Below, in pieces: positions 27,852 to 39,985 of a stretch of DNA of 64,000 bases. This DNA comes from Halostella limicola (GTDB taxonomy: Archaea > Halobacteriota > Halobacteria > Halobacteriales > Natronoarchaeaceae): NCBI RefSeq assembly GCF_003675875.1, contig NZ_RCDI01000001.1, positions 992,001-1,056,000 on the forward strand. Direction: 5' to 3'. How positions within the stretch are numbered: position 1 is the first letter of the stretch; each line of letters begins with the position of its first letter. The notes below the pieces were generated by a model. The model did no database searches. It was not told where the DNA came from and saw nothing but the letters and a program-made list of their open reading frames with translations. The position numbers were made by a program, and so were the translations under genes.

Positions 27852-28472
27852 GCACCCCCTCCACGCTGTATCCGTCTCATGGTCGAACGTTGATCGCCCA
27901 GTCGGGTGAATCTCTCGGTTTCAAAGGGGTGGGACGCACTTGGAGCGTGTGACACGTGCGTCCGGTACAGTTTTCTTCTTCGATAATCATAAATACGGCC
28001 AGTAGTTCACGGAGATAAGGGACCGTTTTACACGCGGTCCGGAGCTCGGATGGCCAAGTGTCCGACCGATCGAGCGACAGCCCCGGGTCAATCCCGGCTT
28101 ACTCCCGGACGCGGGCCGTCCGATGGACCGTCAGAAGGGTCGCGACGCGCCGCCGGTCGGCACGCGCCGACGCCCGTCAGGTACCGCTTACGCTCGAGGA
28201 ACGCCAATAACCCCACATCTACCGGTGGTGACGGTTCCGCTTCAGGGTTACTTCTACTCCGGGAGTAGGGGATCAGAACCGGAGCGAGGCCTGGGTATGT
28301 CACGCGATGGCCGAGCACTGCTGGGTGACACACGGACTCGGAAACAACGTTCCGGGACTGCCCACGCTGGTTCGGTGACCGAGCGGCGACCCCGAACCAC
28401 TGTGTTCGAGCGGTTCGAACGGGCCGTAGGCGCAGATTAATTTTATACTACCCGTCTCATATCAAATACCAT
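27852..28472. other. 620-bp stretch without a recognised gene
   Basis: No frame here has a convincing protein; the short open frames have basic, low-complexity translations. A CATAAATACGG near 27986 and AATTTTATACTACC just before the sugar dehydrogenase gene are AT-rich promoter candidates. A tRNA-like T-arm near 28085 does not fold into a tRNA. The length is large for this compact genome, so an unannotated RNA or decayed gene is possible. Confidence 0.5.
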
Positions 28473-29843
28473 ATGAAGAGGCGGAGGTTCCTGCGCGGCG
28501 GTCTGGCCACGGTTGCGGGAACGGCTGTCGGGATGCGACTCCAGAGTCCACGGTGGGAGATGAGCGACGGCGAGACCAGCCCCGTCGTCGACGGTCCGCC
28601 GGTCGGACTCGAACCCGTCGCCACCGGGCTCGAACAGCCGGTCGCGATGGCGTTCCCCCGGGGCGATCCGTCGGTGCGGCTGATCGCGGAGAAGTCCGGC
28701 GTCGTCCACCGCCACGACGGGGACGGCTATCAGGAGGAGCCGTTCCTCGACGTCTCCGACTCGATGGCGGGGCCGGAGAACTGGGAGATGGGCTTTCTCG
28801 GCTTCGAGCTCCACCCCGACTTCGCGGACAACGGGAAGTGTTACGCTCGCTACAGCGCCCCGCTGACGTCGGCGTCGTTCGACCGGTTCTCCCACGCGTT
28901 CGTCCTCTCCGAGTTCACTGCGACCGACGACCGCCGCCGCGTCGACCCCACCTCCGAACGCGTCCTCCTCTCCCTGCCCGAACCCGGCCCGAACCACAAC
29001 GCGGGTTCGATCACCTTCGGCCCCGACGGCTACCTCTACGTCGCCGTCGGCGACGGGAGCTCCGGCGACCTCGACGCCGGGCCCGGACACGTCGACGACT
29101 GGTACCTCATGAACCGCGGCGGGAACGGGCAGGACGTGACCGAGAACCTGTTCGGGAGCATCCTCCGCATCGACGTCGACAGCGGCGAGTCCCCCTACGG
29201 CGTCCCGGACGACAACCCCCTCGTCGGCGAGGACGGCCGCGACGAACAGTGGGCGTGGGGCTTCCGGAACCCCTACCGAATGTCATTCGGCCCCGACGGC
29301 CGACTGTTCGTCGGCGACGTCGGGTCGAACCGCTTCGAGGAAATAAACCTCGTCCGCCGCGGCGGCAACTACGGCTGGAACGTCCGCGAGGGCAAGCGCT
29401 GTCTCTCGAACCGCTACGCCGCCTACGCGCTCGCGAAGCTCCCTCTCTCCCGGAACAACTGGCCCGCCTGCCCGTCCGCGACCCCCGACGGCGACCCCCT
29501 CGTCGATCCCGTCGCCGTCTATCCCCACCGCCGCGACGGCGAGCCGTTCGGACAGGCCGTCATCGGCGGCCACGTCTACGACGGCGACGCGGTTCCCGAC
29601 CTCCGCGGCGAGTACGTGTTCGCCGACTTCGTCGGCGACGGGCGCGCCGCGCGGCTGTTCGCCGCGTCGCCGGACGACGACCCCCCCTGGACGATGCGCG
29701 AACTCCGTCCGACCGTCGACGGCGAACCCTTCGAGAAATACGTCCTCTCTTTCGCCACTGACCCCGACGGCGGACTCTATCTCCTCACGTCGCGGTTAGC
29801 GCCGGAGACGGGAACGGTGTACCGGATGAAGTCGCCGTCGTGA
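28473..29843 (+). CDS. PQQ-dependent sugar dehydrogenase (glucose/sorbosone family), Tat-exported
   Basis: A 456-residue protein with a twin-arginine signal (RRRFLRGGLATVAGTAVG, residues 3-20). The six-bladed beta-propeller of the GSDH family is shown by GFLGFELHPDF, GPNHNAGSITFGPDGYLYV, WAWGFRNPYRMSF and GDVGSNRFEEINLVRRGGNYGWNV. The family oxidises aldose sugars with PQQ at the outer face of the membrane. Whether this host makes PQQ is not shown, and archaeal members may use or lack PQQ. A TATA-like AATTTTATAC lies about 30 bases upstream of the ATG. Confidence 0.82.
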   Translation: MKRRRFLRGGLATVAGTAVGMRLQSPRWEMSDGETSPVVDGPPVGLEPVATGLEQPVAMAFPRGDPSVRLIAEKSGVVHRHDGDGYQEEPFLDVSDSMAGPENWEMGFLGFELHPDFADNGKCYARYSAPLTSASFDRFSHAFVLSEFTATDDRRRVDPTSERVLLSLPEPGPNHNAGSITFGPDGYLYVAVGDGSSGDLDAGPGHVDDWYLMNRGGNGQDVTENLFGSILRIDVDSGESPYGVPDDNPLVGEDGRDEQWAWGFRNPYRMSFGPDGRLFVGDVGSNRFEEINLVRRGGNYGWNVREGKRCLSNRYAAYALAKLPLSRNNWPACPSATPDGDPLVDPVAVYPHRRDGEPFGQAVIGGHVYDGDAVPDLRGEYVFADFVGDGRAARLFAASPDDDPPWTMRELRPTVDGEPFEKYVLSFATDPDGGLYLLTSRLAPETGTVYRMKSPS

Positions 29844-29938: not shown

Positions 29939-30739
29939 TTACTGGAGTACTCGGGCAGCATCTGCTGAGAGCGTAATCGTCGCGTCCCCGCTTGTGACGG
30001 TCTCACCAAGAGTTTTTTCGAGAAAGGCAGCGACTTGGTCCCGGTATTCCTGCGGCCGATCCTCAGAAATGGTAACTGTTGCTTTGTCATCGTGGATGGC
30101 ACCACGGTTCAAAACGTACGTCCGAGCAAAGTCGAGACGGAGGTGCTGGCCAACATTGTCGAGGTAGTTCGGGAGTGAGAGATCGTCGCGTGTAGCTTTC
30201 TCTCCGAGCGGCGCACCAAGGACTGTAAGGACACGACCAAGGATCGCACCGTCCGTCGTGACGCGAATTTCGGTCGACCGGCCGATTTCGTCTGCGTGGC
30301 AGATATCGTATTCGACGCCCACGAGTCCGCACGCCGCGACGACCCGGTCGAGGGCGTCGTCTGAGTCGACCGCGAAGTACGGTCGGTAGGTATCGGCCAG
30401 AATTGACCCACCGGAGAACACCTGCGCGACGAGACGGTTCAATCCCTCGAACGTCGACGATCCAGTGTCGATCTCTATCCAACCACGTGCGTGCGCTCGT
30501 TCGAGGCCACGCTGTGGATCCGGTTTCCCTCCGTCATCGATCCACGCCCGGAGCCGTGCTCGCGGGAGATCGAGATCCGTAGCGACGCGTTGCGAGCCCG
30601 CCCGGCCGCCGTTGCCGCCGCGAAGTTCTGCCGAGGCCTTCGTCGCTTGGTAGTACTGTTGGAGGAGTTCCCAGGGACCGACATCTGTGTTAGGAGAGTA
30701 AGTTTCAACAAACTCTTTGGAGGATATAATTGTCGGCAT
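29939..30739 (-). CDS. HTH protein with LAGLIDADG-like (WhiA-type) domain
   Basis: A 266-residue protein. An N-terminal helix-turn-helix (ATDLDLPRARLRAWIDDG) is followed by a region whose pattern (VAQVFSGGSILADTYRPYF, VLGAPLGEKATRDD, LDFARTYVLNRGA) recalls homing-endonuclease folds. The catalytic acidic residue ending LAGLIDADG helices is not at the expected place (YVLNRGA), so a DNA-binding, non-cutting role like bacterial WhiA is more likely. It opens the accessory region and is divergent from the pilin genes. The fold assignment is from pattern only. Confidence 0.45.
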   Translation of the reverse strand: MPTIISSKEFVETYSPNTDVGPWELLQQYYQATKASAELRGGNGGRAGSQRVATDLDLPRARLRAWIDDGGKPDPQRGLERAHARGWIEIDTGSSTFEGLNRLVAQVFSGGSILADTYRPYFAVDSDDALDRVVAACGLVGVEYDICHADEIGRSTEIRVTTDGAILGRVLTVLGAPLGEKATRDDLSLPNYLDNVGQHLRLDFARTYVLNRGAIHDDKATVTISEDRPQEYRDQVAAFLEKTLGETVTSGDATITLSADAARVLQ

Positions 30740-30968
30740 TTTGCCAATCTTGGCTTTGTGCTCATATAGGTGTAACGGTGATTAAGCAGTTTGAAGGCCT
30801 GATTAGCGTTTTCAATGGCTCGTTGAAGGGTTACAAGACTTGGTATCTCGTGTCTGTGAGAATGAATAAACAACTACATTTATACCGGCCCGGTGTTATC
30901 GTCGTCTTAACGCACCAACGAAAACGGAACGGCGCGAGGAAGTACACCCCCTCCACGCGTCGATAAAT

Positions 30969-30988
30969 AGGTTCGATTTGTCGAACCT
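30969..30988. promoter_or_regulatory. 20-nt perfect palindrome before the pilin genes
   Basis: AGGTTCGATTTGTCGAACCT: eight-base arms separated by TTTG, located 35 bases before the first pilin ATG and directly after GATAAAT, an AT-rich TATA candidate. Position and symmetry suit a dimeric repressor operator or a 5' hairpin in the mRNA. Confidence 0.55.
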
Positions 30989-31022
30989 TAACCGTTGTCG
31001 TGGGTGCGGGAACAAGACAATC

Positions 31023-31442
31023 ATGAACATCAAAAATCTGTTCACCGACGACGACGCAGTTTCGCCGGTGATTGGCGTCATCCTTATGGTCGCCATCACC
31101 GTTATTCTCGCGGCCGTGATCGGGGCGTTCGTCCTCGATCTCGGCGGATCACAGGAAAAAACTCCCCAGGCCAGCTTCGACTGGGATCAAAATAGCACCG
31201 ATGCCGTGACGGTTACCTTGGAATCTGGTGAATCGATTGGTGCTGACCGGCTGTCTACGAACTTTGACGGTGGGTCATTCAATTCTGATGGCGATTGGGC
31301 AACTAAATATTCCGGTTCTGAAGTTGGTGCCGGTGACTACGTAGTTGTGACAGGACTCAGTAGTGGCGATGAGGTCCGCGTCGTATGGACATCGGAAAGC
31401 GGAGAGACCTCGTCAACGCTCTCCACGTACACTCTCCAGTAA
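31023..31442 (+). CDS. type IV pilin (PilA-like), first of tandem pair
   Basis: A 139-residue prepilin from the ATG at 31023. The short N-terminus [12 protein letters not shown] is followed by [20 protein letters not shown], the haloarchaeal pilin hydrophobic domain (12-40), cleaved by PibD at the A-V boundary. The C-terminal 95 residues form a variable, Ser/Thr/Gly-rich exposed domain ending [14 protein letters not shown]. It is two bases upstream of a second pilin with nearly the same first 45 residues. Expected product: subunit of an adhesion pilus. Confidence 0.9.
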
Positions 31443-31444
31443 TA

Positions 31445-31954
31445 ATGGATATTAAAAGCCTGTTCACCGACGATGACGCGGTCTCCCCAGTGATTGGTGT
31501 CATCCTTATGGTCGCCATCACCGTCATTCTCGCTGCCGTGATCGGGGCATTCGTTCTCGACCTCGGTGGCAGTCAGGAAGCAGCACCCCAAGTGAGCTTC
31601 AATATCGATCAGGGCAATGACACCCTCCCGAACGATCATCTAGGAGATGGGACGGGAAATAACGGCACAGAAACGGTTCAAGTAGCCCATGAGAGTGGGG
31701 ATACATTAGAGGAATCCCTTATTGACCTAAGTGTCAATGGGAATGCTGCAATGAACCAGAGTGAGAACACAACCGCAATCTGGAGCGGTAGCGGCGAGAT
31801 CACAGCTGGTGCCAGCCAGACCATCTATGCCTACGACTCGACTGGTAACGGCGAGGCAGATCAGACACTCCAGAGCGGAGACTCTATCCGCGTGGTCTGG
31901 ACCTCCGAAAGTGGAGATACTTCGTCTTCGCTTATCGAGTACGAAGTTAATTAA
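31445..31954 (+). CDS. type IV pilin (PilA-like), second of tandem pair
   Basis: A 169-residue prepilin from the ATG at 31445, two bases after the first pilin's stop. Residues 1-45 match the neighbour almost exactly ([18 protein letters not shown]), and the C-terminus ends [16 protein letters not shown] as in pilin 1, while the middle is different and longer. Several N-x-S/T sequons (NGTET, NQSENTT) could be N-glycosylated. A hairpin with a T-run follows the gene. Confidence 0.9.
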
Positions 31955-31957
31955 CCA

Positions 31958-31987
31958 CCCCGCAACTGCGGGATAACCCTGTTTTTT
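31958..31987 (+). terminator. hairpin plus T-run after the pilin genes
   Basis: CCCGC (31959-31963), loop AACT, GCGGG (31968-31972), then a TTTTTT run at 31982-31987. It lies just after the second pilin stop and fits a transcription terminator for the two-gene unit. Confidence 0.6.
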
Positions 31988-31989
31988 GT

Positions 31990-32296
31990 CGAAGCGGTGC
32001 GGGCTGGTGTCGAGTGAGCGCTCACCGGGAGTCATGATGTCTGTATTGCCTCCCATTCGCTACAGAGGTACCTATTCCCAGTAACTTCAACACGAGTCAT
32101 AACTGTCTGACGAGGATCAGCGTTGCGGTGTGTTTGGTTCCATCCGATTTATCGGGTCGACGGTCGTCATTGCCAGCTAGCTTTGTTGACGATCCGTCGT
32201 GATCGTGAACTCAACCTCGCCTAGGACGTTTCCTTGGCCGTCGCGACGCTCGTACTCCCCGAGGTTGTCAGGCACGCACTGTGGTCTGAAGACTAC
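31990..32296 (-). pseudogene. remnants of two gene segments (copy 1)
   Basis: Segment 1 (about 31993-32073) is similar at DNA level to 34050-34130; its minus-strand reading includes GERSLDTSPHRF. Segment 2 (about 32175-32296), minus strand, reads VENVVFRPQCVPDNLGEY, then VLGEVEFTITTDRQQS and a stop; a related fragment is at 33835-33925. Neither has a start codon or complete gene. These appear to be 3' ends of decayed genes. The stretch from 31988 to 32323 otherwise contains nothing recognised. Confidence 0.45.
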
Positions 32297-32323
32297 ATTC
32301 TCGACTGTCGCAGGCTCCCTTCC

Positions 32324-33337
32324 TCAAATATACCCTAATTCAGATAGTTGTTCGCGGACACTTTCGGGATCCCGATGATTCCTGTCCGGATCCTGTTGGT
32401 AAGCCGGTCGGATCTGGGGTGAGGAATCAGTATTAGATCGGTTAGTAACACGCTCAACGCCGTTACGTACGTCTAGGACAGTTTCCACGTCTTCAATAGC
32501 TTCTTCTTCTGATGCGCCGAGATATGCATCATGAGTATGGTAGCCCTTGCGAAGTCCATGATCAGAAACGCAGACTAGCGTATCCTCTGGTTGGAGTAAG
32601 GAGCGGACCTCTTCCGTCCATGAGGCGGCCTGCCTATATGCTCGTTTTTGATAACCGTGTTCCCTCATGACGGGGTCAAGGTGACCAACAGTATCAAGAT
32701 AGGCTAGCCAAACGAATACAAGGTCATAGTCACGCTGGACCGCCTCACGGACAATACCAAGTTTCTCCACCGCTTTGCCAGTGACGAGTTCTGCGAACTC
32801 ATGATCCGGTATTCCCGGTTCGTGCCACTTTCCGGCCTCACCACTAGTGTCGAAATCCACGTACTCTGCGAATTGAGCACCTCTGTCAGTCAACACACCG
32901 AACCGGTGATCTGTGTCAACACGATAATTCGGAATTGCTATTGGAAGTGATCTCCGTCCGTCGAAGACAGTGTCAACACCCTCTTCGTCATAATAGTCAG
33001 GCCCAGGATATCTCATCTCCGCACCATGAGCACGCAGGAGAGCGCCGATCGATGTTCTGAGGCGGTCTGGGATAATGTGCTCTGCGGCGTTTGCAGCGGT
33101 CTGAACTACCGGATTCTCCCAGTCTGCTGATCCCTCACTCGTTGCATAGATGCCGTGAGTCTCGGGACCAACGCCAGTTATGATCGACGGCCAGAGTTCG
33201 GCCGTATGCGGTTTCCCGATTACGTCATTGTCAAATGTGTCTATACACTTATTGTATTTACCAAACTTTTCCTTGGTACCAAATTGCTCGGCCAGTTCAT
33301 AGTCAAGGGCATCCCACCCTAAGACGACAGTCGTCAT
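32324..33337 (-). CDS. alkaline phosphatase-superfamily (phosphodiesterase-like) protein
   Basis: A 337-residue protein from the ATG at 33337 (MTTVVLGWDALDYELA). Asp9 is the first metal ligand, ELWPSIITGVGP holds the nucleophile Ser/Thr region, and AYLDTVGHLDP and VCVSDHGLRKGYHTHDAYLG supply the other metal-binding residues. The family cleaves phospho- or sulfo-esters or transfers such groups to glycans. No signal peptide is seen. It is preceded, with one base between, by a small membrane protein frame. Its codon use is less GC-rich than the core genes. The substrate is unknown. Confidence 0.75.
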   Translation of the reverse strand: MTTVVLGWDALDYELAEQFGTKEKFGKYNKCIDTFDNDVIGKPHTAELWPSIITGVGPETHGIYATSEGSADWENPVVQTAANAAEHIIPDRLRTSIGALLRAHGAEMRYPGPDYYDEEGVDTVFDGRRSLPIAIPNYRVDTDHRFGVLTDRGAQFAEYVDFDTSGEAGKWHEPGIPDHEFAELVTGKAVEKLGIVREAVQRDYDLVFVWLAYLDTVGHLDPVMREHGYQKRAYRQAASWTEEVRSLLQPEDTLVCVSDHGLRKGYHTHDAYLGASEEEAIEDVETVLDVRNGVERVTNRSNTDSSPQIRPAYQQDPDRNHRDPESVREQLSELGYI

Positions 33338-33338
33338 T

Positions 33339-33579
33339 TTACCACCACCTGTACAGGAGTCGCATACTGTCCGCACGCGAGTGCGGCCTGTCTAGCAAAT
33401 GCCAGAACGTTGCGGCGGCGACGAGAAGAACTGCCCTCGTCGACCGTCTGAACGCCAGCATCACGAGTGCGGCGACACCACTGGTGAAGAGCGCAGATAT
33501 CACTGCGATGGCGATAGCCCCCCCAAGGACAGTCAGCCGTAATCAAGCCCTCCCGCCCGAGCTTGTCAGTAACCCCCAT
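33339..33579 (-). pseudogene. frameshifted small membrane protein gene
   Basis: From the ATG at 33579 the frame starts MGVTDKLGREGLI and then loses hydrophobic character. In the neighbouring frame a two-segment membrane protein continues (RLTVLGGAIAIAVISALFTS, AVLLVAAATFWHLLD) and stops with TAA at 33339-33341, one base before the phosphodiesterase ATG. One extra base near 33540 would account for it. The close coupling suggests the intact ancestor was co-translated with the phosphodiesterase. Moderate support, since the second frame lacks its own start. Confidence 0.45.
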
Positions 33580-33599
33580 GACATACGTGAATTACAGTC

Positions 33600-34230
33600 A
33601 TAGACGAGTACCTATTTACGTGCTGTCTACAGCATGGTTACCAGAAAGTCCAAAATGAAGCTAGGTGAGGAAGGGAGTGTGATCTTGACGGGAACTACGT
33701 TCCTCAAACAGGCCACACCGAGGTACGGTCGTGTGTGCTCACCGTCACCAAGGGTGGTTGATTCTGCTGGTTCCTGCCACTCGACCACGTTGTCGGTCGT
33801 CAGCACAGTTATCTCTGCTGCAGACTCGTCGATATCGCGAGCTCAACCTCAGCGAGTACTAGCTCTTCGCCGACGCGACAGTCGTATCCGCCAAGGTCCG
33901 GCAGCGCACAGTGCGGCCTAAATACATCCTTCTCTCAAAGGCGACTTACATACCAACCGAGAACTGCGGACTTATGTGGCGCCTTCAAATGGGTAACGGT
34001 GATTCCGAAGTACATGGAAAAACCGTCTCGCTATCACTTCGCATCAACCGTAGAAGCGGTGCGGGCAGGTGGCGAGTGAACGCTCGCCCAGAGTCGTGAT
34101 GCTCCGTATTACCCCTGGTTCGCTACGGAGGAAACCTCCGCATCGTGGTATATCGCCTTAAACAGTATCAACATTGCGTTGTCTACGCTAATGGTTTCCT
34201 GAGTCGGATTATCTCCATCAGTAGTCAGAA
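33600..34230. other. 630-bp gap with duplicated gene remnants (copy 2)
   Basis: Minus-strand coding traces only: KDVFRPHCALPDLGGY then VLAEVELAISTSLQQR and a stop (about 33835-33930), an adjoining frame with VLTTDNVVEWQEPAESTTL (about 33700-33815), and a segment at 34050-34130 similar to 31993-32073. A GGCGAG/CTCGCC hairpin lies within the last. The order of the two segments is reversed relative to copy 1. No intact gene is visible. Confidence 0.45.
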
Positions 34231-34488
34231 CTACCGCCAGCGACTCTCCACCCGCGTCCGATACTGCAACCCGACAACGTCGGTGTTGAACCGCTGAATT
34301 GTCACGGGGTCCAACTCGTCGCGTGCTGCTTGGAAGTTCTCCTCGCTCTGTATCAAGTGCTCCAAAGCCGCATCGAGAACGTCGGACATGGGCGGGTCAT
34401 CGTCGGGACCGCTCGCGACGATCTCCCGGACGTGGTCGAGACGGCGTTGCCGTTCGCCGGTGATCTTCAGGCTCGTTCGTCGAGTCAT
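34231..34488 (-). CDS. DUF7386-like RHH-type protein (85 aa)
   Basis: An 85-residue protein from the ATG at 34488 (MTRRTSLKITGERQRRLDHV). N-terminal strand plus helices and the later SDVLDAALEHLIQSEENF fit a ribbon-helix-helix DNA-binding protein; I relate it to the haloarchaeal DUF7386 family found on mobile elements. The C-terminus LQYRTRVESRWR is also family-like. It stands alone on the minus strand. Confidence 0.6.
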   Translation of the reverse strand: MTRRTSLKITGERQRRLDHVREIVASGPDDDPPMSDVLDAALEHLIQSEENFQAARDELDPVTIQRFNTDVVGLQYRTRVESRWR

Positions 34489-34732
34489 ATTAAGTAGGAA
34501 CTGATGCCCGGGGGGATGATTCGCGTCGTTCGCGCGTGAACGAGCGGCCGGTGCTTTATGAATAGGGGCCGGGGGAGCGACGTGATCGCCGCGGTCGTGG
34601 GGGCACACCAGTTCGGATTGATGCACCTGCGCTCACAGCCCACGGCGCAAAGGTGCATACATCGAGGTTCGCCGATACATTTGCGAGCGACCCCACGGGG
34701 TCCATCTCGAAGACCCGGTTGCACGGCCCTGG

Positions 34733-34957
34733 TCATAGTGCCAGCTCCTCGTCGTCGTCAACGCTGACCGAAACGTCTGGGACCGATCCATCATCGACGG
34801 CACGGACGAGATACGCGCCCTCGCCCACGCGCTGAACGTGCATCTCCTGATTCGCCGGCACGTCGCCGTTGTCCGCGAAGATGCCGTCGAGGCGAAGGTC
34901 GTCATTGTCGAGCGAGACTGTTGGCGTTCCTTCACGGTTGCAGAGTTTCCTGAACAT
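34733..34957 (-). CDS. small AbrB-like protein (74 aa)
   Basis: A 74-residue protein from the ATG at 34957 (MFRKLCNREGTPTVSLD); upstream ATGs at 34963 and 34966 are alternatives. TPTVSLDNDDLRLDGI followed by short strands (MHVQRVGEGAYLVRAV) resembles the swapped-hairpin AbrB/MazE outline. An acidic tail ends it. No toxin is adjacent, so it is not a clear antitoxin. From 34489 to 34732 no gene is seen. Confidence 0.45.
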   Translation of the reverse strand: MFRKLCNREGTPTVSLDNDDLRLDGIFADNGDVPANQEMHVQRVGEGAYLVRAVDDGSVPDVSVSVDDDEELAL

Positions 34958-35077
34958 CACCATCACGGGCGGCTATCCTATCCCTCTTAATTCTTCTGCC
35001 GCAGGGACACGTCGTGATCATAGTAGTACCAAAATACGGAGTTTAACGGGCGGGGGGATAGCCGGTCTCCGCACAGT

Positions 35078-35490
35078 ATGGCACTCACAATCCCACAGAA
35101 GTACGTTCCCGCCGGCATCCGGCGGGAAGACGGTATTGACCTTACAGACTCCGTACTCGCGCCCATCTTCGTACTCGCCTCGTTTTCGATCGGCGCGGTC
35201 GGTTCCCTCAAGTTCTCTGAACCGCTGAACCTCTCCCTCGCGGATGCGCTGTACAGCGCCCACGGCACCGAGATTACGTTCGTCTTCATCGTCTCGATGG
35301 GGGTACTCGTCCTCGGCTGGCTCACCAACGAGAACACGCCCGAGGACTACACGGACGCCGAGACGGTCGTCATGCTCTTGGCGGTCATCCTGAACGTGCT
35401 CGCGGCGCTCGTCCCCGCAGTCTCGGTCGCGCTCGACTCGATGTGGTACGTCGGGTGGTTCACCGTCTTCCTTCTCGTCGTTGTCGCGGA
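35078..35490 (+). pseudogene. 3'-truncated four-segment membrane protein gene
   Basis: From the ATG at 35078 ([18 protein letters not shown]) the frame encodes four membrane segments ([63 protein letters not shown]). At about 35485-35490 the sequence becomes the antisense of the DUF7845-like gene, and the frame runs on without a native stop to 36205. The true C-terminus is therefore lost. The layout (about 135 residues, four segments) is like small membrane proteins of haloarchaeal viruses and plasmids, but this is only a resemblance. Confidence 0.5.
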
Positions 35491-36252
35491 CGTGCCTCGG
35501 GTGGTAGTGCTTCAGCTGCTTCCCGAGGTTGTGCTCGCCGATGAGCCGCTTCGCGTCGGCCTTCGGAATAATTGCCCGGTGGTTCTTTCCGACGATCTTC
35601 TCGTTGTCCACGCGGTACTCGAACTTGCTGCCACGCTCGGTCGCGCAGAGCGTCAGAAGACGATGCATGACACCGGTCCGGCGCACCATCTTCTTGCCCA
35701 TGTTGCGGGTGACACGGACGTACCGCTCGTAGGTCGTGATGTTGCTGAACTCGTGCGGCTGCCCGGCGAAGTAGTCGGGGTTCATGAACTCGCCGGCTTC
35801 GCGAGCGAGCGCCTGAACGAACTCGGGGAGCAGGTCACGGTACTCCTCAGGTTCGAGGTTGCTCCCACCAAACGAGACGTTGACCGCTTCATCGGGGTCA
35901 GCGTTGTCGAAGGGGTTGCTGATCTCCTCGCCGCTCTCGTAGTGGCGCATGTTCGGGAAGCGCGGCTGTATCAGGAAGTTCGCCTTCCGCTCGCCGTCGC
36001 CGTACGCGCCGATACGGTACTCGTAGAGGCGATCGCCGCCCACGTCGTCGGTCGGCCGCGGCGCGATACCGCCCTTCTGGTACTTGAGGTTCACCGTCCA
36101 CTCCTCGCCGTCGACCTTGAGCTCTATCTCGCCGCTGTAGCCGTCGAAGCTACTCAGACACAGCGACCCGACGGCCCAGTACGGGGAAGCCCGTGGCGGA
36201 CGTAGACGAGGTTGCCCTCGCACTCGGGGGGCGCGGTCGCGACCTGACTCAC
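35485..36252 (-). pseudogene. DUF7845-like gene, frameshifted and truncated
   Basis: The start is a GTG at 36252 (VSQVATAPPECEGNL). One base is missing near 36187, where CTTCC should be CTTTCC: YVRHGL breaks off and [14 protein letters not shown] continues one frame over. The body is well conserved ([32 protein letters not shown]) up to [13 protein letters not shown] near 35490, where homology stops abruptly at the convergent membrane gene. I recall the family as DUF7845, common on haloarchaeal mobile elements. The GTG overlaps the upstream gene's stop by four bases. Confidence 0.6.
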
Positions 36253-36380
36253 AGCGGACCCTCCCGCGCGGTTCGCTCTTCGTCGACGCACTCGCCACAG
36301 AGGCGACGTGCTCCGTACCGACGCGTCCCGGTGGAGGTACCGCATCGGTCGCACTCGACGGCGTCGACGACGCGGCTCAC
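36249..36380 (-). CDS. small CxxC zinc-finger protein (43 aa)
   Basis: A 43-residue frame from the GTG at 36380 (VSRVVDAVECDRCG). Cys10/Cys13 and Cys28/Cys31 (LCGEC) form a compact zinc finger. It overlaps the PAP2 gene upstream (GTGA) and the DUF7845-like gene downstream (GTGA), both by four bases, which strongly supports translation although it is too short for routine calling. Confidence 0.65.
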   Translation of the reverse strand: MSRVVDAVECDRCGTSTGTRRYGARRLCGECVDEERTAREGPL

Positions 36381-37700: not shown

Positions 37701-38207
37701 TTATCGGGGTGCATCGTCGTCGTCGAACTCCACGTCGTAGGCGTCGTCGCCGAGGTCGTAGGTGTCGTCACCGTCGCCCTCGTCGGGGTTCGGGAAGCCG
37801 AACGTGTACACGTTACCGGTGGCGAAGCCGCCGGTCTTCTTCTCGACGTACGGGCGGACGACCCAGCGCCGGAGCGCGCCGCGGACGAGCGCGCGCGTCG
37901 GCGGGAGCGCGAGCAGGAAGCCGATGGCGTCCGTGACGAGCCCCGGCGTGAGCAGGAACGCGCCGGCCGCGATGAGCAGGCCGCCGTCGAGCAGTTCGTT
38001 CGTCGGCACCTCGCCCTTCGCGAGGGTGCGCCGGAGCTTGCGCATCGTCCGCCGGCCCTCCGCGCGGACGAGGAGCATCCCGACCAGCGCGGTGAGCACG
38101 ACGAGAAGCACGGTTTCGAGGCCGCCCAGTAGCTCAACCGCGACGTACACGAGGAATATCGCGTCGGCCAGCGGGATGAGCAGCAGGGCCAGCAGCCACC
38201 AGATCAT
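37701..38207 (-). CDS. FxsA family membrane protein
   Basis: A 168-residue protein with three membrane segments in the first 100 residues (WLLALLLIPLADAIFLVYV, VLLVVLTALVGMLLV, GLLIAAGAFLLTPGLVTDAI) and a cytosolic acidic tail. GLLIAAGAFLLTPGLVTD is the FxsA signature. E. coli FxsA affects phage F exclusion through PifA; the archaeal role is unknown. Confidence 0.87.
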   Translation of the reverse strand: MIWWLLALLLIPLADAIFLVYVAVELLGGLETVLLVVLTALVGMLLVRAEGRRTMRKLRRTLAKGEVPTNELLDGGLLIAAGAFLLTPGLVTDAIGFLLALPPTRALVRGALRRWVVRPYVEKKTGGFATGNVYTFGFPNPDEGDGDDTYDLGDDAYDVEFDDDDAPR

Positions 38208-38338
38208 ACTCTCCCTTCCAGTGCTGGCCCCAAAACCCTTTATCCAGACGGCGGGCGGGGCGCGGCGATCCAGCGAGAGGTCCCAGACGATATCCGCGAG
38301 TGCGAAGCCCTTACGCCGCGGCGACCCAACCCCGAGGT

Positions 38339-39985
38339 ATGGACGACAGCGCTGCGGACACGCGGGTCGAGTGGCGCGAGTGGGGACCGGACGCCTTCGC
38401 GGCCGCGGACCGCGCGGGCAAGCCGGTGCTGCTCTCGCTCTCGGCGACCTGGTGTACGCACTGTCACGAGATGGACGAGGCGACGTACTCCGAGCCCCGG
38501 ATCGCGGCCAACGTCAACGACGGGTTCGTCCCGGTACGCGTCGACGTCGACCGCCACCCGCGGGTCGGCGAGCGGTACAACATGGGCGGGTTCCCGTCGA
38601 CGGTGTTTCTGACGCCGGAGGGCGAGGTCCTGACGGGCGCGGGCTATCTCGGCCCCGACGGGATGCGGCAGGTCATCGACAGCGTCCGGCAGATGTGGGA
38701 CGCGAAGGGGACGGCTGCCGGGAGCATCCCGCGCTCGGTGCAGGGCAACGACACGCCCGCGGGCGACCTCTCCGAGGACATCGAGGGGCGGATGGTCGGC
38801 CAGCTCCGCGCCGCCTACGACGAGACGGCCGGCGGGTGGGGGACGGACGCGAAGTTCCCGATGCCCCGCACAGTCGAGTTCGCGCTGAAACGCGAGCGCG
38901 AGCAGGCGCTGCGCTCGCTCAACGCCATCAGCGCGAACCTGCTCGACGACTACGCGGGCGGGTTCTTCCGGTACGCCACCGAGAGCGACTGGAGCGGGAT
39001 CCAGTACGAGAAGGTGCTCGACGCGAACGCCGCCCTCGTGCGTGCGTTCGCCAACGGCTACCTCTACACCGGGAAGGACGAGTACCGCGAGCCGGCCGAG
39101 CGGACCCTGGAGTTCCTGACGACGACGCTGTGGACCGGCGAGGCGTTCGCCGGCAGCCAGTCCGCCGGCGAGAGCGCCGACTACTACACGCTGGACCCGA
39201 CCGAGCGCGACGACGCGGACGAACCGGCCGTCGACGACACGGTCTTCGCCGACTGGAACGCCGTGGCCGTCGACGCCCTGCTCACCTTCCACGCCTACAC
39301 GGACGACGAGCGCGCCCGGCAGTACGCCGAGCGAACGCTGGAGTACCTCCGCGAGAACCTGATCGACGGCGACCGCGTCGTCCACTACCGCGACGGCGAG
39401 GAGACGGGCGAGCGCGGCCTCCTCGCGGACCACGCCCGCGTCGTTGCGGCGCTGTCGACGGCCCACCAGGTGCTCGGCGCGGACACGCTGCCGCTCGCCG
39501 AGCGCCTCGCCGAGTACGTCCTCGACGAGTTGCGGTCCGAAGGGTCGTTCACCGACGGTCCGGCCAGCGGCCCCGCGCTGCTCGACCGTCCGCTCCGTCC
39601 GCTGGACGCGAACGTCGAGTTCGCCGACGCGCTCCTGACGCTGCACGAACTCACCGGCGAGGACCGCTACTACGCCGCCGCCCGCGACGCCGTCGAGGCG
39701 TTCGCCGGCGCGAGCGACCGGTTCGGACCGCGCGTCGCCCACTACGCCGCCGTCGCCTCGCGCCTCCAGCGCGGCGCGCTCACCATCGCTGTCGCCGACG
39801 AGGCCGGGTCGGACCTCCACCGGGCCGCGCTCCGCATGGCCGACCACGAGAAGGTGGTCCTCCCGGCGGCCGGAGGCGACGAGTACGAACCGGGCCACGC
39901 CTACGTCGTGACGGACGACGACCTCTCCGAACCCGCCGCGACGCCCGAGGAACTCGGCGAACTGGTCGCCGACCACGTCAGTTGA
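38339..39985 (+). CDS. DUF255 thioredoxin-domain protein
   Basis: A 548-residue protein from the ATG at 38339. The N-terminal thioredoxin-like domain has WCTHCHEM (CxxC) in the usual place; the rest is a six-hairpin alpha/alpha-barrel like glycosidase or epimerase folds, as in YyaL and human SPATA20. The role is uncertain, possibly redox- or sugar-related. It runs toward the TrmB gene 61 bp downstream, on the same strand. Confidence 0.82.
   Translation: MDDSAADTRVEWREWGPDAFAAADRAGKPVLLSLSATWCTHCHEMDEATYSEPRIAANVNDGFVPVRVDVDRHPRVGERYNMGGFPSTVFLTPEGEVLTGAGYLGPDGMRQVIDSVRQMWDAKGTAAGSIPRSVQGNDTPAGDLSEDIEGRMVGQLRAAYDETAGGWGTDAKFPMPRTVEFALKREREQALRSLNAISANLLDDYAGGFFRYATESDWSGIQYEKVLDANAALVRAFANGYLYTGKDEYREPAERTLEFLTTTLWTGEAFAGSQSAGESADYYTLDPTERDDADEPAVDDTVFADWNAVAVDALLTFHAYTDDERARQYAERTLEYLRENLIDGDRVVHYRDGEETGERGLLADHARVVAALSTAHQVLGADTLPLAERLAEYVLDELRSEGSFTDGPASGPALLDRPLRPLDANVEFADALLTLHELTGEDRYYAAARDAVEAFAGASDRFGPRVAHYAAVASRLQRGALTIAVADEAGSDLHRAALRMADHEKVVLPAAGGDEYEPGHAYVVTDDDLSEPAATPEELGELVADHVS

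Follow-up and report, generated by a model that had tools for sequence, protein, structure and literature searches.

Adjacent PilA-type pilin genes of Halostella limicola, with a conserved leader RNA and a linked candidate regulator

Introduction

The closest described counterparts of the genes reported here are the type IV pilins of Haloferax volcanii. According to excerpts of PMC4371748, this organism has six pilins with a common helix, each of which builds pili by itself, though short ones, and its adhesion differs by the pilin expressed; haloarchaeal pilin choice affects both sticking and biofilm formation. The portions of a census of archaeal type IV pili drawn on here (PMC4858521) describe major pilin genes as prone to tandem duplication and the regulation of pilus assembly as little known.

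Here we describe two adjacent pilin genes of Halostella limicola, together with their surroundings in a 64,000-nucleotide stretch of DNA that was analysed as a whole and that we call the window. Like PilA1-PilA6 of H. volcanii and the pilus structure 8fj5, the two encoded proteins have a near-identical hydrophobic domain, the same domain fold and the same C-terminal motif, and in both organisms the pilin genes lie apart from the assembly genes. The middles of the proteins differ between the two systems, and the excerpts of PMC4371748 mention neither a leader RNA nor a linked regulator. Likewise, the text of PMC4858521 contains neither the term LAGLIDADG nor homing endonuclease, and the regulators named in the portions drawn on here belong to other families. 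Natrinema sp. J7-2 also has two related haloarchaeal pilins with homologous N-termini, PilA1 and PilA2 (9myg and 8gi2); in a single-sequence search, however, the second H. limicola pilin matches these only over residues 9-123 and 9-68, respectively, and the Natrinema C-termini are of another type. A pilin with a conserved start and a variable remainder is also the basis of pilE/pilS antigenic variation in Neisseria, where silent partial pilin copies are present. The window pilins resemble that system in their conserved start and variable remainder and differ from it in that each copy is a full gene, the two probably forming one operon, and in that no partial donor copies were found in the genome.

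Results

Two pilins with shared ends and different middles

The first gene (ORF1; positions 31023-31442, forward strand) encodes a protein of 139 residues, P0001, and the second (ORF2; 31445-31954, forward strand) encodes a protein of 169 residues, P0002. Both match the Pilin_N family PF07790 (6.5e-23 for P0001 and 4.1e-21 for P0002) and the archaellin/pilin N-terminal model TIGR02537 (2.8e-13 and 5.4e-13), in each case above cut-off, which puts their resemblance well outside chance. An earlier note on this DNA had described two pilins that lie two bases apart, are nearly the same in residues 1-45 and in the last 20 or so, and differ in the length and content of their middles. The gap is indeed two bases (31443-31444), the middles differ and comprise 72 and 102 residues, and 43 of the 45 N-terminal residues agree (31023-31157 in the first gene and 31445-31579 in the second). 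These residues comprise the signal peptide and the hydrophobic assembly helix, and the hydrophobic domain that follows the predicted peptidase site is identical in the two proteins. At the nucleotide level, a direct repeat of 171 nt with 80% identity covers both 5' ends (31019-31189 and 31441-31611). The C-terminal claim stands in weaker form: the last 22 residues (31374-31439 and 31886-31951) are similar, with 14 of the 22 identical, rather than nearly the same. Judged from their sequences, P0001 and P0002 come from complete genes and are new members of the known PilA-type family in a common arrangement. The G+C content is 0.52-0.54 across positions 30400-34000 and 0.65-0.70 at 28000-29600, and the pilin region is perhaps an A+T-richer island that was imported or remodelled.

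The shared ends follow the usual pilin design

AlphaFold2 models were obtained for P0001 (pLDDT 85.2) and P0002 (pLDDT 84.7), and the top PDB match of both is 8fj5, the H. volcanii type IV pilus (Foldseek E = 8.6e-11 for P0001 and 2.7e-9 for P0002; for P0002, a VIA Z of 10.9 and an rmsd of 3.7 over 128 residues). Each model has a single helix (residues 15-40) followed by a beta-sandwich, of which the shared C-terminus would form the last two strands (modelled at 117-123 and 130-137 in P0001 and at 147-153 and 160-167 in P0002). The difference in length is placed in loops, and the predicted fold is the same. A phmmer comparison aligns 8fj5 with residues 1-166 of P0002 (8.5e-21) and includes the same C-terminal motif, which indicates that the shared end is a family-wide feature. 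Among 40 aligned pilins, W152 is at least 90% conserved and the helix A12-V32 is invariant; 38 of the 40 were fetched with patterns taken from this helix, so its invariance, unlike the conservation of W152, is partly a product of how the set was chosen. Synonymous codons in the shared C-terminus of P0001 and P0002 agree at 4 of 14 positions against 3.9 expected, and we conclude from this chance-level agreement that the ending is kept at the protein level. A single-copy pilin of the same genome (L038) has a diverged helix, yet its ending is the same as that of P0001 and P0002. The presence of the motif in this protein and in H. volcanii led us to reject the shared C-terminus as a footprint of recombination. 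The L038 gene (L038:2454-2903, reverse strand) reads AVSSVLAVVLMIAVAIVLGSLVG in its helix and is P0002-like in its middle as well as in its ending.

The shared ends are thus those of the usual haloarchaeal pilin, with a signal peptide and assembly helix, a closing beta-hairpin and an exposed middle. Residues 1-45 would be held alike by predicted prepilin peptidase cleavage and by packing of the helix in the filament core, and the last 22 residues by their place in the closing hairpin of the pilin domain. The middles, which are probably exposed in a filament, consist of loops and strands that would be free to diverge, and the two subunits may in this way give the pilus different exposed faces. 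The same genome contains one match to PF06847, the archaeal prepilin peptidase family, and four matches to the ATPase family PF00437; the pilins would be assembled by pilus machinery encoded elsewhere in the genome.

The pair is an old duplication within a variable family of arrays

P0002 was matched in 53 of the 59 relatives searched and in 43 of 43 good genomes. A contig scan with P0002 alone gave 79 stretches, none of which was confirmed. At least two pilins lie within 50 nt of each other in 22 of 78 named loci, which together contain 31 adjacent pairs with gaps of -1 to 21 nt, and the H. limicola genome itself holds a second pilin pair (L037) 223 kb away. In the trees, P0002 joins a pilin from the congener G002 and not its neighbour P0001 (support 96/91 for whole proteins and 97/90 for the part after residue 45), so the duplication that produced P0001 and P0002 is older than these species. 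P0001 groups with other pilins when whole proteins are used (94/84), and the part after residue 45 gives it no resolved position. The proposal of the earlier note that duplication was followed by divergence of the exposed part is therefore supported as old paralogy, with the predicted fold retained. That note had set its proposal against the case in which both middles are conserved and distinct in all relatives. Such conservation is seen in one genus (G005 and G007, where the first, shorter genes and the second, longer genes form separate groups) and for P0002 in G002; it does not extend to all relatives, since among congeners the arrays contain two to four genes and the pilin type varies too.

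One could suppose that the two products have unequal roles in a shared filament, one as its major pilin and the other as a minor or modifying subunit, and that translation of the tandem genes is coupled so as to maintain the ratio of the two. The two-base gap would suit such coupling, and the separate grouping of shorter first and longer second genes in G005 and G007, the greater length of the second gene in 23 of the 31 adjacent pairs and the difference in N-glycosylation sequons (four in P0002 and one in P0001) all favour two distinct roles. Nevertheless, each of H. volcanii PilA1-6 is able to form pili alone, though short ones (excerpts of PMC4371748), and array size ranges from two to four among congeners. 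We regard this division of labour as possible but doubtful.

Sharing of codons at the ends of neighbouring genes

The earlier note had also suggested that the conserved ends could allow recombination between the two copies. In its general form, this idea describes a variation system in which the shared ends serve as recombination arms, neighbours exchange or convert their ends in concerted evolution and the middles are shuffled. We compared synonymous codons in 49 arrays comprising 179 distinct pilin genes and 106 same-array pairs, with the middle motif and the 3' anchor each located in 154 of the 179 genes. Same-array pairs share 0.653 of these codons at the N-terminus, 0.613 at the C-terminus and 0.428 in the middle motif, all above the values for pairs from other loci of the same genome (0.517, 0.423 and 0.391, respectively). 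When only strictly aligned codons are counted, the excess over cross-locus pairs is 0.386 at the N-terminus, 0.159 in the middle and 0.338 at the C-terminus (95% interval for the N-terminal minus the middle value, 0.153-0.316; for the 3' excess over the middle, 0.062-0.287), and the N-terminal value exceeds that of the middle in 42 of 47 arrays with enough sites. The L072 pair is identical at 123 of 126 nt in the 5' end and has middles that are 46% identical, and its 5' end matches that of L076, another array of the same species, at 107-108 of 126 nt. Relative to orthologue-like pairs the 5' effect persists, being zero or less in 2 of 2000 bootstraps, while that at the C-terminus falls short of significance (118 of 2000). 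Of 18 quartets drawn from two arrays, 11 show greater 5' codon sharing between neighbours and seven between orthologues; these quartets overlap and represent few genera. Both arrays of G007 lack the sharing (0.26). A young duplication with fast-changing middles could give the same pattern, and L072 in fact keeps 10 of its 12 middle codons. For the homogenised ends across the family, both conversion of the ends and rapid change of the middle after a young duplication are possible.

The window pair itself gives little sign of such exchange. Its N-terminal excess is modest (18 of 31 codons), with 0 of 5 codons shared in the middle motif and 4 of 12 at the C-terminus, and the 5' end of P0001 is nearer to that of a congener's pilin (116 of 126 nt) than to that of P0002 (106 of 126). 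An AU test on the 5' end rejected neither the orthologous grouping (p-AU 0.11) nor the grouping with P0001 (0.30). Given these values and the chance-level agreement of the C-terminal codons noted above, recent gene conversion within the window pair is unsupported, and of the recombination between the two copies that the earlier note had envisaged we find no sign of a recent event. We consider a variation system of this kind a tentative and rather unlikely explanation of the locus.

We searched the organism's own genome (4.1 Mb in nine contigs) with each variable part at E values up to 1 and found no partial donor copies. The variable part of P0001 gave 11 matches and that of P0002 gave five; apart from the queries themselves and other pilins, the matches are 27-41% identical and fall within open frames of 391-786 aa. 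The genome has six Pilin_N matches, all in open frames without stops; a Pilin_N search alone cannot see copies that lack the N-terminus, and the variable-part searches cover those. With both genes intact in one probable operon, and with no partial donor copies in the genome, there is no sign of the switching of adhesion or antigenicity that had been suggested. Stretches that resemble the variable part of P0001 occur at C3:190180-191202 (three stretches, best E = 3.3e-6) and at C4:476799-477041 (best E = 1.8e-5), in open frames of 659 and 786 aa, respectively; these frames may encode larger surface proteins with a related domain.

A conserved structured leader RNA precedes the pilins

Positions 30904-31014 of the forward strand hold a predicted leader RNA with a conserved structure, which ends 8 nt before the first pilin start codon (covariance model R2, E = 0.0011 in 321 kb; z = -3.41). 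The single-sequence fold consists of a long stem (30911-30916/31003-31008, 30918-30921/30998-31001 and 30923-30927/30992-30996) that encloses two hairpins, P3 (30930-30940/30952-30962) and P4 (30969-30976/30981-30988). A TATA-like box, TTTATA, lies at 30879-30884, 32 nt upstream of the first stem, and would act as the promoter. Seven leaders folded singly give a long stem and two hairpins with z scores of -3.4 to -5.8, and none of 200 shuffles was as stable; in the leader at L046 the basal stem is placed differently. When 16 leaders from other families were shuffled, 12 to 27 of every 100 shuffles took this shape too, so the case for the leader rests on covariation, stability and position.

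MAFFT alignments of the leaders put the stems out of register, and RNAalifold applied to them gave a weak result (-3.3 kcal/mol); covariance models were used instead. Model R1 was built from three leaders and found, besides training leaders, four distinct places with a total of seven matches (E = 0.0002 to 0.056). Model R2, with nine rows, recovers 12 leaders in 321 kb, of which five were used in neither model: the window leader and those at L046, L048, L051 and L163. In an alignment of the 12 loci, which was fitted to the covariance model so that its counts lean towards that model, both partners vary in 27 of the 34 pairs, and standard pairs make up 90.8% of cells as against 38.5-50.9% when slid; none of 500 shuffles reached the observed values. 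The assigned pairs also occur in the minimum-energy folds of the individual sequences, in 16 to 34 of 26 to 34 cases for 11 of the rows, three of which supplied the structure; the window row has 12 of its 27 assigned standard pairs in its own minimum-energy fold, where the stems take another register. The pairs include 41 G-U cells and 7 A-C cells, which indicates an RNA with the same direction as the pilins. A TATA-like match precedes the first stem by 32 nt at 10 of the 12 loci and by 33 and 35 nt at the other two, and a second match is present at three loci. Where a pilin follows directly, as it does at 11 loci, 7 to 21 nt separate the leader from the start codon; at L049, which has the longest spacing of 21 nt, a nearer in-frame ATG is 6 nt away.

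No Rfam family matched the leader at the seven loci scanned. Positions 30600-31200 of the window, searched at E values up to 10, gave only three microRNA rows far below their gathering scores, and a scan of six other loci (L043, L044, L045, L047, L049 and L051) gave one tRNA and no leader match. It is improbable that the inverted repeats upstream serve the divergently encoded protein as operators or cruciforms in the DNA rather than forming RNA structure. They do lie between divergent genes, one of which probably encodes a DNA-binding protein, but the covariation continues along a nested stem that is about 100 nt long and encloses two hairpins, the G-U excess (41 against 7) follows the pilin direction, the TATA-like match and the start codon keep their distances from the element (32 nt at 10 of 12 loci and 7-21 nt, respectively), and the best inverted repeats of the 11 upstream regions examined mostly differ from one another in sequence, with none found at L049.

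Distribution of the leader and possible replacement of the pilins behind it

In 98 genomes searched with strict filters, under which weak matches are lost, R2 gave 12 strong matches in seven genomes, together with one weak match (G040, E = 0.013) that is taken as chance. The seven are among the nine genomes of the family. A search of 100 sources, including 78 named haloarchaeal loci, found only the window, and in its present form the leader RNA is known from one family only in these two sets. Within H. limicola, the second pilin pair (L037) has neither leader nor divergent gene. Eleven of the 12 strong matches directly precede a pilin array. The twelfth, L163 in genome G003, lies near the end of contig C4, and behind it come AATCAAAC and a terminal repeat of 16 nt. 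At the end of contig C7 of the same genome lies the pilin array L050, which is preceded by this repeat in inverted orientation and again by AATCAAAC. Most likely, an insertion sequence separates this leader from its pilins. The probable insertion sequence of G003 has, besides its 16-nt terminal repeat, an 8-bp target duplicate, and would cut the pilins off from their promoter.

Beyond the family, 16 pilin leaders were folded, and nine looked alike by eye; eight of these nine have z scores of -2.3 to -4.6 and one of -1.56, and the other seven range from 0.4 to -1.8. A third model, R3, run with filters off, gave 24 weak matches (E = 0.085-5), seven of them at leader places and none significant. 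The leaders at L146-L159, from a second group of families, are also unusually stable in eight of the nine picked by eye (z = -2.3 to -4.6), and they may be distant versions of the same RNA.

One leader stands at a locus that is orthologous to the window locus by its flanks. At L048, in genome G001, the counterparts of 34231-34632 and 38180-39985 are 72% and 84% identical, and a remnant of the divergent gene is 71% identical. L048 has the leader RNA, yet its three pilins are of another type, and their exodomains match those of the window pilins no better than chance (best E = 6.3); a pilin of the same type at L050 reaches E = 0.005 with P0001. A swap of exodomains alone was rejected, as the NVNAG-type pilins of L048-L051 form their own group in the 5'-end tree too (97/98). 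This grouping indicates replacement or differential loss of entire genes or arrays, and it appears that the control sequence was kept while the pilin was replaced, or that paralogues were differentially lost. Two genes that contain DUF7386 and DUF7845 (34231-36298, reverse strand) lie downstream of the window pilins and stay beside pilin arrays in several relatives.

A divergent gene linked to pilins and leaders

The gene upstream of the leader (29939-30739, reverse strand) encodes a candidate regulator of 266 aa. Neither Pfam nor NCBIfam gave a match to it. By eye, its N-terminal part is HTH-like, with no match to any model, and another part is LAGLIDADG-like and lacks the acidic residue. Its profile matches 39 of the 98 genomes, seven of them only through weak matches to long ORFs. 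Ten ORFs of 947-1135 aa are matched over 122-176 positions (E = 5e-9 to 1e-4); the two that were examined are RtcB proteins with an intein splicing domain, and one of these has a LAGLIDADG_3 match below cut-off (E = 0.027). We take the intein region of haloarchaeal RtcB proteins to be of the LAGLIDADG type. The divergent gene resembles this region in that its profile matches it, and differs in having no intein or RtcB parts and in the replacement of the acidic residue of GDG. In an alignment inspected by eye, all 12 relatives have G, T, C or S opposite the acidic residue of GDG, such that the catalytic acidic residue for DNA cleavage is absent from the first motif in all of them. No LAGLIDADG chain was found among the PDB matches of the divergent gene. 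The terms HTH and inactive LAGLIDADG-like are accordingly used here as provisional domain names.

The pilin loci examined contain 20 homologous ORFs, counting that of the window, and each of them either overlaps a pilin or is no more than about 300 nt away from one; 12 of the 20 are divergent and eight are on the same strand. Of 30 fetched divergent-gene loci, 24 have a pilin within 1.5 kb, and 22 of these are divergent, with L164 in the same direction and L168 convergent. The gene occurs in the same seven of the nine family genomes as the leader, and it or a remnant adjoins 10 of the 12 leaders (absent at L044 and L051), which makes it a candidate regulator. The homologues at L102 and L076 carry extra repeated segments at one end of the frame, and that at L092 is apparently in two pieces.

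Discussion

Our preferred reading, to which we assign a probability of about 0.8, is that the locus encodes two PilA-type pilins in one probable operon, the expression of which is probably set by a dedicated module consisting of the leader and the divergent gene. P0001 and P0002 would be transcribed together from one promoter; the operon, its start site and its promoter are predictions from the DNA. The control module, common to several such arrays, would have two parts: a folded 5' leader RNA that runs from about the expected transcription start to shortly before the first start codon, and the divergently encoded HTH/LAGLIDADG-derived protein. The association of leader, divergent gene and pilins is observed directly in the genomes; regulation by the leader and the protein is suggested by their position and conservation, and the divergent gene is presumably dedicated to the pilins.

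The LAGLIDADG fold is used elsewhere by RNA-binding maturases. A bolder form of the preferred reading would have exchangeable pilin cassettes behind a new class of leader RNA that is bound by a LAGLIDADG-derived switch protein, with the ends kept alike by gene conversion while the middles diversify. We think this unlikely on present evidence; if true, it would amount to a pilin-specific riboregulator in archaea.

To our knowledge, neither this leader RNA nor its association with the linked protein has been described; the portions of the literature searched, including those of PMC4371748, PMC4858521, PMC6491452 and PMC6053082, contain no account of either. A leader confined to pilin operons, together with a linked protein family that has no Pfam name, would make the regulation of these pili directly testable. 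The homogenised ends likewise offer a testable account of the near-identical hydrophobic domain among paralogues. Finally, the leader precedes two quite different pilin types, including at one orthologous locus, and control thus appears to be kept in this family while the surface protein is replaced.
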